Assembly: GCA_030595795.1 (NCBI GenBank)
Contig: JAUVCH010000024.1
Location: forward strand, 1 to 39,520
Length of the DNA stretch: 39,520 nt
Reading direction: 5' to 3'
DNA from: Gammaproteobacteria bacterium
GTDB taxonomy: Bacteria > Pseudomonadota > Gammaproteobacteria > GCA-001735895
The notes under the pieces are model-generated. The model made no database searches, was not told the origin of the DNA, and saw only the letters and a program-made list of their open reading frames with translations. The position numbers were made by a program, and so were the translations under genes. Positions 14,852 to 29,791 of this stretch are shown here, piece by piece (within the stretch, counting starts at the first letter, position 1; each line of letters begins with the position of its first letter).

Positions 14852-15217
14852 TTATTTCGAACTAGACCGGAGAATATAATCTTCCAGCTTCTTATCGATA
14901 CCCAGGACATGCAAACGTAACCATTCGAATAAAAATAAAGAAAGGGAATCCTGTAAGACTTTATTCATACTGACCTGTGTATCGACCATAGCTCTGAGTT
15001 CCTCGCGAAATCGATCATGCGCTCGTACATGATCTGCGATACCAGGGTAGTTTAACTCTTTCATGTAAGTTTCTTCGAGGCTAAAGTGGTGTTCTGCATA
15101 CAACTGCAATTTTTTGAGAACTTCGCGATCAAAAGGCTCGATTTTTATTTCATCGATTAGTTTGAACAGCATTTGATGCTGCGTATCCTGCCATATTAAA
15201 TCGCTGGTTTTAATCAT
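14852..15217 (-). CDS. Bacteriohemerythrin-like di-iron oxygen-binding protein
   Basis: 121 residues. All seven di-iron ligands can be assigned: H14, H44, E48, H63, H67, H103 and D108. The intervals from H44 onward (4, 15, 4, 36, 5) equal those of characterised bacteriohemerythrins such as McHr. The gap between the first and second ligands is six residues shorter. Such proteins bind O2 reversibly and serve in oxygen delivery, storage or sensing. There is no fused signalling domain. The gene is divergent from the motor operon, with about 210 bp between the starts, so shared regulation is possible but not shown. Confidence 0.85.
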   Translation of the reverse strand: MIKTSDLIWQDTQHQMLFKLIDEIKIEPFDREVLKKLQLYAEHHFSLEETYMKELNYPGIADHVRAHDRFREELRAMVDTQVSMNKVLQDSLSLFLFEWLRLHVLGIDKKLEDYILRSSSK

Positions 15218-15340: not shown

Positions 15341-15429
15341 TTTTTACGGGCATTACCCTTTGTTGGAATGCTTAATTTAGTGTACTTTGTTTATTTTATT
15401 TGTAGATATTGCAAAGTCAGGGATCAGAT

Positions 15430-17874
15430 GTGAGCTTCGATTACGATACTATTCGAGTAAAAAAGCAATCTCATGGCACACAGTGGGCTTCTTACAGCGA
15501 TCTGTTTATGGTGCTGGCATTTGTTTTTTTACTCATGTACATGGTTGCCAGTCTTCGTTCAGGCATGGTTTCGGCGGCCAGTCATGCCGAAATTAAGGAG
15601 GTAAAGCAGGAGCTGGAATTATACGAGTCGGTTAAGTCTCAATACCTTGCCGAGCAGGCAAACCCCATCGAAAAGCAAATATACCAGAAAGTACTCGAGC
15701 AAATTACTCTGCTAGAAAGCGAAGCCAGCCAGAAAAAGCAGATACTCGAACAGGAATTCAACGACCAAAAGCAGCGGGAATCGTCCTTAAACGAATATCA
15801 GCAAATGATTGTTGCGATGATCAATGCCAACGCCGTTGCAAAGGCAGAAGCGACACGAAAGTTCAACGCAGAACAACAGCAGAATGTGAAGCTTTCGAAA
15901 GAAGTCCAACAAAAAGGTGAGAACGTTGCGACTCTGGAAAATAAACTCGAAGTAGAAGCGGTTGAACTGGCCGTGTTAAAACAGTCCCATTCCGAACAAA
16001 CTAAAAATCTTGAAGGTAAATTCGAACAGCTAAAGGATCAATATGAAGACGGCCAGGGAAAGCTCACACAATTAGAGCAAAAATTAGACACTGAAGAAAT
16101 TGAAAAGAGGTCACTAGAAGTAAAGCAGACTCAGGAAGCTGAAGCCCTGGAAAATAAATTTAAAACTTTGAAAGAGGAGTACAACAAAGGGCAGACCCAG
16201 ATAGTTTCTTTGGAAGAAATATTACAAATGGAGAAGTCCGAGAAAGAAGAATTGCAAAGCTCGTTTTCACAGCAAAGTGAAAGCCAGCAACAACGGATTA
16301 GTGAGCTAAAAAATCAGCAGTCGGAAGGACAGGAAAAACTGGCGTCTCTTGAGCAAAGGCTGGCGACTGAGGAGAATGAGAAGGCAGAATTAAAATCTAC
16401 TCATAGCGAGGCGAGTCGAAACCTGCAAAGTAAAATTGAAGAGTTGACCGAACAGCAAAGTCAAAGCCAGGTCGAATTAACCGAACTCCAGGAAAGAATA
16501 AAGGCTGAAGAAACTCAAAAGCTGGCCCTACAGAAAACATTATCTGAAGAAACTGAAAACCTTCAAGGACAGATCGAACAGTTATCCGGTAAACAAAATG
16601 AGGCACAGATTAAACTGGCTTCGTTAGAGCAGGATTTAGCGGCAGAAAACGCGGAGAAGTCTGCATTGGAACAGTCGTTGTCTCAACAGTCGAAAAAATG
16701 GCAAAACGAAATTGACACGTTATCGCAATTGAAGAACCAGCGTGAGAATGAGTTATCAACCCTAGAGCAACAATTTGCTGCGGAAGCCGCAGAAAAGGCA
16801 GCACTTGAAAGTACCCTGGTTCAGCAAACCGGCGAGCTCGAAGGAAAAATCAAGGAACTTTCGGATCAACAATCTCAAAGCGAGGGCGAGCTAGCCGGTT
16901 TGAAGGAGCAGCTGAATAAGGCTGAAGTTGATAAAGCCGCATTAGAAAATGCCAGCGCTGCCGAAGTTGGAGAACTGGAGGGGAAATCCAGGCAGTTGCA
17001 GGATGAATTAGAGCAAAAGTTAAAAGAGCTGGCCGGACTGGAAGGAGATATTAAAGCCAGTGAGGATAAAATTGCAGGGCTCGAAAAGGGCTATGGCGAT
17101 CAGATTATGGACTTGTCCGATAAATATAGCGACCTGAAAAATGAATATGAAACGAGTGGAAAACAGGTGGGTAAACTGGCCGACGAATTAGCGACCGCGC
17201 AGCAGGCGTTAGAGGATACAAAGGACGAGCTAGGAAAAACGAGAGCTAATTTAAAAGAAACTGCTGGAGAGCTCGAAGAAGCGCTTGAGCTAGAAAACCG
17301 GCGGCGGGATGTCGCCAAACAAATCGAGGACGAATTTAAAAGGCACGGCATAGCAGCCGATGTCGATAGCGGCACGGGTGACGTCATTATAGATTTTGGG
17401 AAAGACTATTTTGATTCTGATAGCGCCGAATTAAAACCAGGCATGGAGCGCACAATACGCAAGGCTATCCCACTTTACGCAAAGAGTTTATTTGCTACCG
17501 ATTCTGATGTGGCAAATATTTCCTCGGTCGAAATTATCGGGTTCGCTTCGCCGACCTACGGTGGCGAACCGGTTAATCCAGTCGGCTTATCTGAAGAAAA
17601 TCGAATCGCAGTTAATTATAACCTCGATTTAAGTTATGAACGCGCGCGTTCCATTTTCGAATACGTATTCGACACTAACAAGATGGATTTCCCCCATCAG
17701 GATATTATGTTGCCGTTAATTAAAGTCACCGGACGGAGCTTTTTTACAGAAAAAATTGACGTGGCGGATACTGGGAACTTAAGCAAGAAAGAATTTTGTC
17801 GACAGTATAATTGTAATCAATCACAACGTGTCATCATCAAATTCGGGTTATCCGAAAAAGGAGGTTCTCAATGA
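15430..17874 (+). CDS. MotB/ZorB-like motor subunit with a giant repeat coiled coil and OmpA-like domain
   Basis: 814 residues from a GTG preceded by CAGGGA; a TTG 21 bases upstream is the alternative. The basic N-terminus (about 1-20) leads into one membrane helix with SYSDLFMVLAFVFLLMYM; the Asp (D24) sits where MotB, ZorB and ExbD carry the ion-binding Asp. Then comes a long predicted coiled coil (about 55-635) including ten consecutive 46-residue repeats at 148-607 without one insertion or deletion. The C-terminal domain (about 648-808) is OmpA-like, with YFDSDSAELKP and NYNLDLSYERARSIFEYV. The usual HTD Asp that binds peptidoglycan is replaced by FAS (about 705-707), while the Arg is kept. 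Two Cys near the end could form a disulfide, fitting a periplasmic location. The TGA overlaps the next ATG. Confidence 0.82.
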   Translation: MSFDYDTIRVKKQSHGTQWASYSDLFMVLAFVFLLMYMVASLRSGMVSAASHAEIKEVKQELELYESVKSQYLAEQANPIEKQIYQKVLEQITLLESEASQKKQILEQEFNDQKQRESSLNEYQQMIVAMINANAVAKAEATRKFNAEQQQNVKLSKEVQQKGENVATLENKLEVEAVELAVLKQSHSEQTKNLEGKFEQLKDQYEDGQGKLTQLEQKLDTEEIEKRSLEVKQTQEAEALENKFKTLKEEYNKGQTQIVSLEEILQMEKSEKEELQSSFSQQSESQQQRISELKNQQSEGQEKLASLEQRLATEENEKAELKSTHSEASRNLQSKIEELTEQQSQSQVELTELQERIKAEETQKLALQKTLSEETENLQGQIEQLSGKQNEAQIKLASLEQDLAAENAEKSALEQSLSQQSKKWQNEIDTLSQLKNQRENELSTLEQQFAAEAAEKAALESTLVQQTGELEGKIKELSDQQSQSEGELAGLKEQLNKAEVDKAALENASAAEVGELEGKSRQLQDELEQKLKELAGLEGDIKASEDKIAGLEKGYGDQIMDLSDKYSDLKNEYETSGKQVGKLADELATAQQALEDTKDELGKTRANLKETAGELEEALELENRRRDVAKQIEDEFKRHGIAADVDSGTGDVIIDFGKDYFDSDSAELKPGMERTIRKAIPLYAKSLFATDSDVANISSVEIIGFASPTYGGEPVNPVGLSEENRIAVNYNLDLSYERARSIFEYVFDTNKMDFPHQDIMLPLIKVTGRSFFTEKIDVADTGNLSKKEFCRQYNCNQSQRVIIKFGLSEKGGSQ
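15871..17250 (+). repeat. Ten in-frame 138-bp (46-residue) coiled-coil repeats
   Basis: Each unit is exactly 138 bp, starting at 15871, 16009, 16147, 16285, 16423, 16561, 16699, 16837, 16975 and 17113. Hydrophobic positions line up in every unit at about residues 1, 5, 8, 19, 22, 26 and 36, with Q at 16 in most and E-K at 32-33 in most. Units 4-8 are most alike (for example ELAGLKEQL, KLASLEQRL, KLASLEQDL at positions 18-26), and the first and last two are degenerate. DNA identity is much lower than the protein pattern, so the array is old and maintained by selection, not a recent slippage product. Confidence 0.85.
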
Positions 17875-18770
17875 ATTCAAGTATTGTCGAAATGGTCAAT
17901 TTTATCGTGCAGTACGCGACAGATTTTTTGATGCCATTCCTTCTCATCGCATTTATTCTGGCGGTCGTAGTTCGCGTTTTAATTACTATTATCATTAATA
18001 GACAAAGGCTCTTCGTCAAAGAATTCTGTAAGCGTGTGGATAAGGATCTCTATTTAAATCCTGATACGCATGGTTCTTTTTACAATGTATTAAAAAGCTA
18101 TCTGGCTCGAACTTATTTCGAATGCTTCGAATTGCGTGCGAAATATAAACGTAGAAATGCAGATCATGTGATGACCATCGGTGATCGAGTATTTTTAATC
18201 CAGGATGGTATCATCCGTTTAATCGATGACTTTCTCAAACACGCTCGCTATTTACGAAAAGATGCCAGCCAGCAGCCAAATTTCGGCGAAATATCGAATA
18301 ATGTATTCAGTTCGAACCCTGTTTTTAACCGGGTCTTCGGTCTATTTTCGATGAGTCGGGCCAATGAAATTCTCAATCTTTTGCCAGGAATTTTCATTGT
18401 GCTGGGGATATTTGGTACCTTCCTCGGTATCATGCGGGCCCTGCCCGAATTAACCGCGATGGACATCACCAATGCTGAAGCCAGCAAAGTCGTAATCGAT
18501 AACTTTCTAATCAGAATTTCCTTTGCGCTGACCACATCAATACTCGGTATTGTGTTATCGGTGCTCATGAGTTTCCTCAATACATTACTCTCCCCGGAGA
18601 GTGCCTACATGGAAATCGTAGATTCTTTTAAATCTGCTACGGAAATATTGTGGAATAAATCCGAAAATAATCAGATTAACGATCTGGAGCCAGTCGATAC
18701 TGACAGGGAATCAGAAGCAGTGAATTCATTTGAATTGGCGATCGCTAATATGTATTCGAGGCGGTTATAA
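17871..18770 (+). CDS. MotA/TolQ/ExbB/ZorA-like proton-channel subunit
   Basis: 299 residues with three membrane helices: about 18-43, 168-190 and 212-240. TM2 reads LLPGIFIVLGIFGTFLGIM and TM3 contains ISFALTTSILGIVLSVL. These are the channel-lining helices of the TolQ/ExbB/MotA superfamily, with polar Thr at 183 and 221-222. A 125-residue cytoplasmic loop lies between TM1 and TM2. Three helices match TolQ, ExbB and ZorA, not four-helix MotA. The long cytoplasmic tail of ZorA is absent, with only about 58 residues after TM3. The ATG overlaps the stop of the MotB-like gene (ATGA), so the two are coupled and should form one ion-driven complex. Confidence 0.82.
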   Translation: MNSSIVEMVNFIVQYATDFLMPFLLIAFILAVVVRVLITIIINRQRLFVKEFCKRVDKDLYLNPDTHGSFYNVLKSYLARTYFECFELRAKYKRRNADHVMTIGDRVFLIQDGIIRLIDDFLKHARYLRKDASQQPNFGEISNNVFSSNPVFNRVFGLFSMSRANEILNLLPGIFIVLGIFGTFLGIMRALPELTAMDITNAEASKVVIDNFLIRISFALTTSILGIVLSVLMSFLNTLLSPESAYMEIVDSFKSATEILWNKSENNQINDLEPVDTDRESEAVNSFELAIANMYSRRL

Positions 18771-18889: not shown

Positions 18890-19192
18890 CTATTGATCTC
18901 TCGGAATCTCCTCCGCCTCCAGGTGTTGCCGTTTATGGATCACGGCCAGCACTTCAATCAGGCTATCAGATTTGATTTCATACAAAATTCGGTAGGAGTA
19001 CAGACTCAACTCCCGTACAGCATCCACGTTCAGCTCGGGTAATTTCTTGCCCTTGCGGGGTAACGTATCCAGACCAATGGTTTTCTTAACCAGCGCTTCA
19101 CTGACCCGCCTGGCATAGAGTACCGAATCCTGGGCAATGTAATCATGGATGTGGCGAACCTGGGATTTGGCGTGAGCCGTCCACTTCACCAA
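18890..19192 (-). CDS. ParE/RelE-superfamily toxin
   Basis: 100 residues. The helical hairpin AHAKSQVRHIHDYIAQDSVLYARRVSEAL, with GLDTLPRKGKKLPEL, is the ParE-type N-terminal half; RELSLYSYRILYEI followed by EVLAVIHKRQ is the C-terminal beta-sheet of the RelE/ParE fold. ParE members poison DNA gyrase, while close relatives cleave mRNA; which applies here is not determinable. The start overlaps the end of the antitoxin gene by 7 bases, the usual antitoxin-first arrangement. Confidence 0.85.
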   Translation of the reverse strand: MVKWTAHAKSQVRHIHDYIAQDSVLYARRVSEALVKKTIGLDTLPRKGKKLPELNVDAVRELSLYSYRILYEIKSDSLIEVLAVIHKRQHLEAEEIPRDQ

Positions 19193-28754: not shown

Positions 28755-29372
28755 GTGTACGAACTGGTTCAGGCGGGTGGCTGGCTAATGGTCCCGATTC
28801 TACTGTGCTCGGTACTGGCATTGGCTATTATCACCGAACGCCTGTGGACTCTGCGGCAGAAAAAAGTCATTCCCACCAAGTTGGTGACGGGCATCTGGAA
28901 TTTGCTCAATAATGATGCATTAACCGAAAGACATATCGTCGAAATCGAAAAGGGATCTCCGTTGGGCCGGGTATTGGCAGCGGGTTTGATTAATCGTCAC
29001 CTGTCCCGTCAACAGGTGCGCGAAAGCATCGAGGAGACTGGGCGTTTCGTGGTTCACGAAATGGAACGTTTTCTAAATACCCTGGGCACGATATCTACCA
29101 TCACCCCGTTGCTCGGCCTACTAGGGACTGTCATCGGCATGATTAAAGTATTTACCGCGATTACCATCATCGGCGTGGGAGACCCCGGACAACTCGCTGG
29201 CGGTATTTCAGAAGCGTTGATTACCACCGCCGCCGGGCTTACGGTAGCCATTCCTAGCCTGATATTCCACCGTCATCTAAAACGTAAGATCGACGAACTG
29301 GTGGTTGGTATGGAACAGGAAGCAATGAAGCTGGTGGAATTCATACACGGTGACCGCAAGAAGCTTTCCTGA
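28755..29372 (+). CDS. exbB: ExbB/TolQ-type proton-channel protein
   Basis: 205 residues with three membrane helices. The N-terminal MYELVQAGGWLMVPILLCSVLALAIITER and the channel helices TITPLLGLLGTVIGMI and EALITTAAGLTVAIPSLIF are textbook ExbB/TolQ. The GTG start has GAGG nine bases upstream. With the ExbD protein encoded two bases downstream it should form a proton-driven energiser. The comEC-exbB-exbD-lpxK-kdsB order is conserved in many gammaproteobacteria, where the partner of this ExbBD is not well established. It may drive a TonB-type protein encoded elsewhere. Confidence 0.92.
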   Translation: MYELVQAGGWLMVPILLCSVLALAIITERLWTLRQKKVIPTKLVTGIWNLLNNDALTERHIVEIEKGSPLGRVLAAGLINRHLSRQQVRESIEETGRFVVHEMERFLNTLGTISTITPLLGLLGTVIGMIKVFTAITIIGVGDPGQLAGGISEALITTAAGLTVAIPSLIFHRHLKRKIDELVVGMEQEAMKLVEFIHGDRKKLS

Positions 29373-29374
29373 AA

Positions 29375-29791
29375 ATGAAGTTCACCAGCCACAGCACCGA
29401 GGAAGAAGCAACGATCAATATGACACCGTTAATCGACGTCGTATTTTTGTTGTTGATATTTTTTATGGTTTCAACCACCTTTGATACAACCTCCGAACTC
29501 AAGATCAGGCTGCCCGAGGCGAGTCAGAATAAGGTGGTAGAAAAGCCGCATACGCTCAGTATCCTGATCGATGCCAAGGGTCGTTTTTTTCTTAATTCAC
29601 GTGAGCTGACTAGCCAGAAGAGCGACGCGTTAATGGCTGCTCTAGAGCGCGTGCTGCAAGGTGCCGACCGGCCCGTGGTTATCCAGTCCGATGCGGAATC
29701 TCCGGTGCAGTCTCTCGTCACAGCAATGGATGTGGTCGGTCGACTGGGATTGACCCAGGTTTCAATCGCGACCACTCGTCCAATCGAGTAG
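29375..29791 (+). CDS. exbD: ExbD/TolR-type protein
   Basis: 138 residues. EATINMTPLIDVVFLLLIFFMVSTTF is the single membrane helix of ExbD with its ion-carrying Asp (in PLIDVVF). The periplasmic domain follows and ends with AMDVVGRLGLTQVSIAT, the usual ExbD C-terminus. It pairs with the ExbB protein encoded just upstream. The gene ends 40 bases before the msbA-lpxK start, and the genes read as one operon. Confidence 0.93.
   Translation: MKFTSHSTEEEATINMTPLIDVVFLLLIFFMVSTTFDTTSELKIRLPEASQNKVVEKPHTLSILIDAKGRFFLNSRELTSQKSDALMAALERVLQGADRPVVIQSDAESPVQSLVTAMDVVGRLGLTQVSIATTRPIE

Follow-up and report, generated by a model that had tools for sequence, protein, structure and literature searches.

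To our knowledge, the ion-driven A/B motors to which a function has been assigned are few, namely those of flagella, Tol, Ton, gliding, type 9 secretion and Zorya. The ion site of Zorya is formed by an Asp together with a Ser/Thr ring (PMC11890865), and one survey (PMC12505986) covers generic ion transporters (GIT) whose periplasmic domains are large, and reports compact B wall domains. Here we describe a pair of genes, in the order B-A, on a 39,520-nucleotide stretch of DNA (the window) from Gammaproteobacteria bacterium (assembly GCA_030595795.1, contig JAUVCH010000024.1). A preliminary description made from the sequence had read this pair as an uncharacterised two-gene motor, and this was borne out: the ion-site residues are conserved, ZorAB is the nearest described system and the pair lies inside no characterised family. 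The pair is real, conserved and uncharacterised and, judged from its sequence, would be an ion motor of the 5:2 kind.

Both subunits matched the ZorAB proteins of Zorya types I and II (PDB 8qyd, 8vvn and 8vvi) best, in sequence as well as in fold; the Asp of B and the Ser/Thr ring of A are kept, and ZorB, like B, consists of a transmembrane (TM) helix, a linker and an OmpA-like domain. However, the Zorya genes are ordered zorA-zorB, ZorA has a long cytoplasmic tail which A lacks, the ZorB linker is short whereas that of B comprises some 600 residues, B is without the canonical wall-binding Asp, and zorC, zorD and zorE are absent here. The flagellar MotAB/PomAB stators share the ion-site Asp in a single B helix, the OmpA-like wall domain and the kind of A/B channel, but their A subunit has four helices rather than three. 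TolQR and ExbBD have a three-helix A subunit with a large cytoplasmic loop, but their B subunit is short and without an OmpA-like domain, and tolA, tonB and pal are not adjacent here. The GIT resemble the pair as non-flagellar A/B motors of unassigned function with extra appendages. It had been stated that no motor of this kind has the domain order found here, which is incorrect since MotB and ZorB are also built as helix, linker and OmpA-like domain, the linker being hugely expanded here; the real differences of the pair are the B-before-A order and the absence of a tail on A.

Both open reading frames (ORFs) were present and joined by the ATGA overlap previously reported (Table 1). Translation of B might also begin further upstream, at a TTG at 15409 that the preliminary description had missed; the GTG start was backed by alignment with relatives and places the acidic residue at Asp24. 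This Asp was found in 60/60 aligned B subunits and aligns with ZorB1 Asp26, which, with Thr147 and Ser184 of ZorA, we take to be the functional residue numbers of Zorya. Membership of the motor superfamily was judged by an acidic residue in the B helix and a polar Ser/Thr ring in TM2 and TM3 of A, and both were found. The A subunit contained three hydrophobic segments (residues 11-47, 164-194 and 207-242), passed the MotA_ExbB domain model PF01618 narrowly (24.7 bits, cut-off 22.9) and had ZorA as its nearest solved relative, in agreement with its earlier assignment as a three-helix TolQ/ZorA-like channel. A ends approx. 57 residues past TM3, without a long cytoplasmic tail of the ZorA type; the long tail is, as had been noted, on the OmpA-bearing subunit and not on the ZorA-like one.

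For B, the one-helix protein with Asp24 and a very long coil was likewise recovered, with one hydrophobic segment followed by a proline-free stretch. The OmpA-like end of B needs a more careful statement: no Pfam match was obtained for this domain, but the PADLOC ZorB1 profile matched it at E=2e-25. When alignments of relatives were used, the nearest solved relatives by sequence were ZorA for A (2.7e-7) and type II ZorB for the B end domain (5e-6). AlphaFold models were obtained with a mean predicted local distance difference test score of 80 for A and 85 for the B end domain. The latter folds like ZorB/MotB/OmpA, and the first Foldseek matches were to ZorB for the B end domain (~1e-6) and to ZorA for A (1.1e-3, probability 1.00). 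The only cysteines of B are two invariant residues in this end domain, which would fit with an oxidising periplasm and might form a disulfide there (Cys790-Cys795).

Table 1. Features of the B-A pair (positions are those of the window; residue counts refer to aligned homologues).
Feature	Coordinates	Strand	Remarks
B subunit gene	15430..17874	+	GTG start, 814 amino acids + stop; one TM helix, long periplasmic coil (predicted), ZorB/MotB-like C-terminal domain
B transmembrane segment, residues 19-47, with putative ion-site Asp24 (codon 15499-15501)	15484..15570	+	The one hydrophobic segment in B
B membrane-proximal periplasmic region, residues 48-135	15571..15834	+	Conserved; L120, N121, Y123 and Q124 nearly invariant
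Proline-free stretch of B, residues 80-669	15667..17436	+	Predicted coiled-coil rod; ~590 residues, ~26 prolines expected
Nine tandem 46-residue repeats in rod, residues 171-584	15940..17181	+	From identities at lag 46
B C-terminal ZorB/MotB/OmpA-like domain, residues ~625-814	17302..17871	+	Profile and fold matches
B Ser707-Pro708-Thr709	17548..17556	+	In place of the canonical peptidoglycan-binding-loop Asp; Ser707 and Thr709 48/48, Pro708 46/48
B Arg738	17641..17643	+	Corresponds to the Arg in the LSxxRA helix with which canonical OmpA-type domains bind peptidoglycan; 48/48
B Cys790 and Cys795	17797..17814	+	Sole cysteines, invariant in alignment
ATGA overlap, A start and B stop	17871..17874	+	
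A subunit gene	17871..18770	+	ATG start, 299 amino acids; three-helix MotA/TolQ/ZorA-type channel
A Thr183, TM2, putative ion-ring residue	18417..18419	+	Aligns with ZorA1 Thr147; 59/59
A Ser223, TM3, putative ion-ring residue	18537..18539	+	Aligns with ZorA1 Ser184; 59/59
A short C-terminal helix, residues 278-298	18702..18764	+	Predicted structure; no long Zorya-type tail

The predicted rod of B showed a strong hydrophobic period of 3.54 residues by periodogram, which agrees with the 46-residue repeat when each repeat is read as 13 turns (46/13 = 3.54 residues per turn). Identities at lag 46 in the window B numbered 141/434; shuffled sequences gave 44 on average and 70 at most. The repeat had not been noticed in the preliminary description. 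The same lag, or its double, was present in all complete B proteins examined from the genus of the window, which total 675-973 residues in length. Bdellovibrionota relatives have shorter rods which are likewise proline-free and mostly of a period near 3.55, without the 46-residue repeat. Tandem Repeats Finder did not reveal the repeat at the DNA level, which marks it as old.

By the tests made the pair is not Zorya, Mot, Tol or Exb, and no profile search placed both proteins inside a characterised motor family. The NCBIfam Zorya models were matched far below their cut-offs (34 bits with a cut-off of 500 for ZorA_4, 32.7 with 100 for ZorA_2 and 22.7 with 400 for ZorB2), and ZorB profile matches alone, even at the E=2e-25 found here, should not be called Zorya. 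The gene order also differs, being B then A here and in relatives and zorA then zorB in three reference Zorya loci. A search of 229 gammaproteobacterial genomes for the ZorA1 family gave no match, but neither did its controls. A flagellar stator was rejected since the pair had no match to MotA/PomA or MotB models while two other pairs in the genome match PomA/MotB, and TolQR-TolA or ExbBD-TonB was rejected as A had no TolQ/ExbB equivalog match and no TolA or TonB neighbour. As reported before, no zorC, zorD, zorE, tolA, tonB or flagellar gene is adjacent to the window pair. The genome carries TolQ, ExbB2 and the two PomA/MotB sets at other places, which makes the pair an additional motor.

The pair belongs to an undescribed family, of which the window pair is a branch without the third gene found in most Bdellovibrionota members. 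Full-length A (counted at E<1e-50) was present in 47/144 Bdellovibrionota genomes, about a third, with B directly 5' of A in nearly all loci and a third gene, here named T, downstream, giving the order B-A-T. T is mostly 700-1440 amino acids long, combines a long coil with a single membrane helix and ends in a conserved domain of ~130 residues (the T C-domain); an FHA domain is found in most T proteins and is absent by reading in L112, L122 and L093. The T C-domain was found in 43/59 fetched loci, and most of the others were broken or ended at a contig edge. Presence of T followed that of A closely: among the 47 genomes with full-length A, 40 had T, as against 0/97 of the others, and T lay within a few kb of A in 39/40. 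The exception was G504, where T and A are ~0.9 Mb apart (G504:C1:1196396-1196923 and 2113575-2114375); in locus L182 no large T frame follows A. In the survey of gene neighbours in relatives, no neighbour besides T was shared by more than seven of the 59 Bdellovibrionota loci. This third gene lay outside what the preliminary description could see. In G485, a single chromosome of 3,782,950 bases which we take to be that of Bdellovibrio bacteriovorus HD100, B-A-T lies at ~1,107,724-1,112,616 (L181:3725-8617).

T is not adjacent to the window pair, and its C-domain was not found in the window genome (G000) or in the whole order of the window, except for one weak match in G023 (G023:C1:174881-175111, locus L153, E=0.003, one internal stop), a member of the genus without A. 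Nine FHA matches were present in G000. An ankyrin protein beside L142 was considered as T and rejected: its start is FHA-like, but Pfam finds ankyrin repeats only. Literature searches returned nothing on the B-A-T family, which was also not encountered in the available part of the PMC12505986 survey.

In a tree of A (83 rows) the gammaproteobacterial clade of the window was monophyletic (100/100) and nested in Bdellovibrionota. Its neighbours were L132 and L144 (98/81), then L128, L142 and L137 (99/99), and it is exactly in these five that T is missing from the entire genome. T presence required a single change over 60 scored rows of the A tree. The B-domain tree agreed on the gammaproteobacterial clade and on L132/L144 as its neighbours and differed, with weak support, on L137/L142. 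Because the clade is nested among the only Bdellovibrionota without T, the T-less pair probably moved horizontally from Bdellovibrionota to the ancestor of the window's genus. The genomes are mostly metagenome-assembled genomes (MAGs), which makes single absences less sure than the overall pattern.

At high identity, whole or in part, A was found in ~22/31 genomes of the window's genus and in 0/10 genomes from sister genera in an order-level search. Among 369 gammaproteobacterial genomes A was confined to this genus except for a single weak match, and the best 80 matches in a scan of 84,980 species were to the window's genus and then to Bdellovibrionota at 38-51% identity. The pair is more than a chance arrangement: relatives at 65-94% identity retain it whole, and it is under strong purifying selection, with a ratio of non-synonymous to synonymous substitution (dN/dS) of ~0.04 in both A and the B end domain and of 0.08 in the B N-terminus.

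With a probability of roughly 0.68, we propose that the pair is an ion-driven envelope motor on the ZorAB side of the superfamily which works through a periplasmic rod. It would be an inner-membrane motor of the MotAB/ExbBD/ZorAB kind, probably with five A and two B subunits, in which ions would pass between TM2 and TM3 of A (Thr183, Ser223) and the B helix (Asp24) and would make A and B rotate relative to each other. In the periplasm the long proline-free coiled-coil rod would be borne by the B dimer, and the OmpA-like tip of the rod would grip the cell wall or a partner attached to it, so that the work would go into the envelope. In most Bdellovibrionota relatives T, usually with an FHA domain, and with a coil, TM helix and small periplasmic domain, would be a second, cytoplasmic rod. 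One gammaproteobacterial genus probably took up a T-less Bdellovibrionota version, and its rod consists of 46-residue repeats.

Several points weigh against this proposal. The A5:B2 stoichiometry and the ion flow are features which we infer, and the Foldseek match of A to ZorA is weak in E-value (1.1e-3) with a large root-mean-square deviation. Wall binding by B is uncertain because the Asp of the canonical GHTD loop is replaced by the invariant Ser707. A rod extended as one straight helix would measure ~86 nm, which far exceeds the periplasm, and it would therefore have to fold back or run along the wall. About a third of the sampled genus members had no strong match to the pair, some of them perhaps incomplete assemblies.

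More tentatively, and we consider it rather doubtful as a whole, the family could be a distinct motor class that has a rod on either side of the inner membrane: B would carry the drive rod in the periplasm, and a separate FHA-capped rod in the cytoplasm, T, would in the ancestral form link motor activity to phospho-signalling. The gammaproteobacterial branch would then have dropped T and built a longer rod of phase-keeping 46-residue units, maybe setting the mechanical reach of the motor.

The best surviving of the other explanations, although an unlikely one, is a motor for surface motility or predation like AglRQS/Glt, in which T would be a cytoplasmic adaptor that joins the motor either to the cytoskeleton or to the phospho-signalling of the predatory cell cycle. 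The Bdellovibrionota, on which the family centres, include many predatory gliders, and the FHA domain of most T proteins also fits this reading. The coiled-coil gene Bd1167 of attack-phase cells was reported to be down-regulated on entry to predation (PMC2797640) and, by map position, may be B or T; its tag is expected near B-A-T from the position of dnaK (Bd1298). Within 70 kb around B-A-T in G485 the only long coil proteins were B, T and SMC. Against this, AglRQS/Glt has one TolQ-like and two TolR-like proteins with glt genes, whereas there is a single B here and no glt/agl gene recurs beside the pair, the gammaproteobacterial genus is without T, and Bdellovibrio already has a separate AglRQS/Glt core (PMC3169522).

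A little less probable still is anti-phage defence related to Zorya, in which the B end would sense phage damage to the wall and the A/B motor would open, with effectors encoded elsewhere or unneeded. The preliminary description had allowed for an unrecognised defence relative, and of this the descent near ZorAB was supported by the nearest matches in sequence and fold; horizontal transfer into the genus and presence in most but not all of its genomes are also what such a system could show. A defence role found no support. Neither zorC, zorD, zorE nor another defence gene lies beside the window pair or recurs in the 59 Bdellovibrionota loci, A has no long cytoplasmic tail, and the B-A order is not that of Zorya. 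The window neighbours are metabolic genes (argS, priA or cytochrome genes in the genus), searches for the pair in collections of plasmids, phages and viruses returned nothing, and it is present in most genomes of the genus.

It is most improbable that the pair energises secretion like Salmonella SiiAB, in which a wall-binding subunit and a MotA-like channel aid type I secretion: the order siiA-siiB, with the wall subunit first, matches B-A, but no type I secretion genes, whether for a secretion ATPase, a membrane-fusion protein or a giant adhesin, adjoin the window pair or recur in the 59 loci. SiiAB is a motor of the same kind (PMC12204202). That the pair is the remnant of another, decayed motor operon or an artefact of assembly, such as Bdellovibrionota contamination, would account for the nearest outside relatives in MAG data, but can practically be dismissed given a genus clade at 65-94% identity over many independent MAGs with its own repeat-built rod, strong purifying selection and the argS, priA or cytochrome genes found beside the pair.

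A second ZorAB-like stand-alone pair, also in the order B-A, was present in other genus members and a sister genus (L059:4954-7779, L060:5785-8842, L061:5381-8202, L062:2547-5375 and L063:7095-10173). Its B is 577-662 amino acids and its A ~350 (577 and 350 in L059), with a ZorB-like end domain that matched PADLOC ZorB1 at 5e-23 and a ZorA-like channel. Unlike the window pair, its A is only ~24% identical to the window A, has loop inserts and forms a separate clade in the tree. Elsewhere in the window, at 28755-29791 and downstream of a lolCD-like block, another MotA_ExbB gene is paired with an ExbD-like one in the ordinary ExbB/ExbD layout. A small hemerythrin gene (14852-15217, minus strand) is divergent from B; in L039 and L056 it again lies close to the pair, and is thus kept beside it in the nearest relatives. 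At 18890-19192 (minus strand) a ParE-type toxin-like ORF (PF05016, E=2e-15) is convergent with A. A short-chain dehydrogenase lies near the pair in many genus members, but its position and side vary, and it was taken as leftover synteny rather than as a conserved third gene of the genus.

What is new here is the B-A-T family, its Bdellovibrionota distribution, the linkage of T, the transfer of a T-less pair and the 46-residue rod repeats. That a ZorAB-like core serves in a chromosomal operon which stands alone and has no defence effectors is relevant to the question of whether an envelope motor with a housekeeping role was the source of the Zorya core. The rod of 46-residue repeats, with its changing copy number, provides a natural series on how rod length matters to a motor. 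The family is widespread in Bdellovibrionota, apparently including B. bacteriovorus, and its function is thus open to gene deletion.

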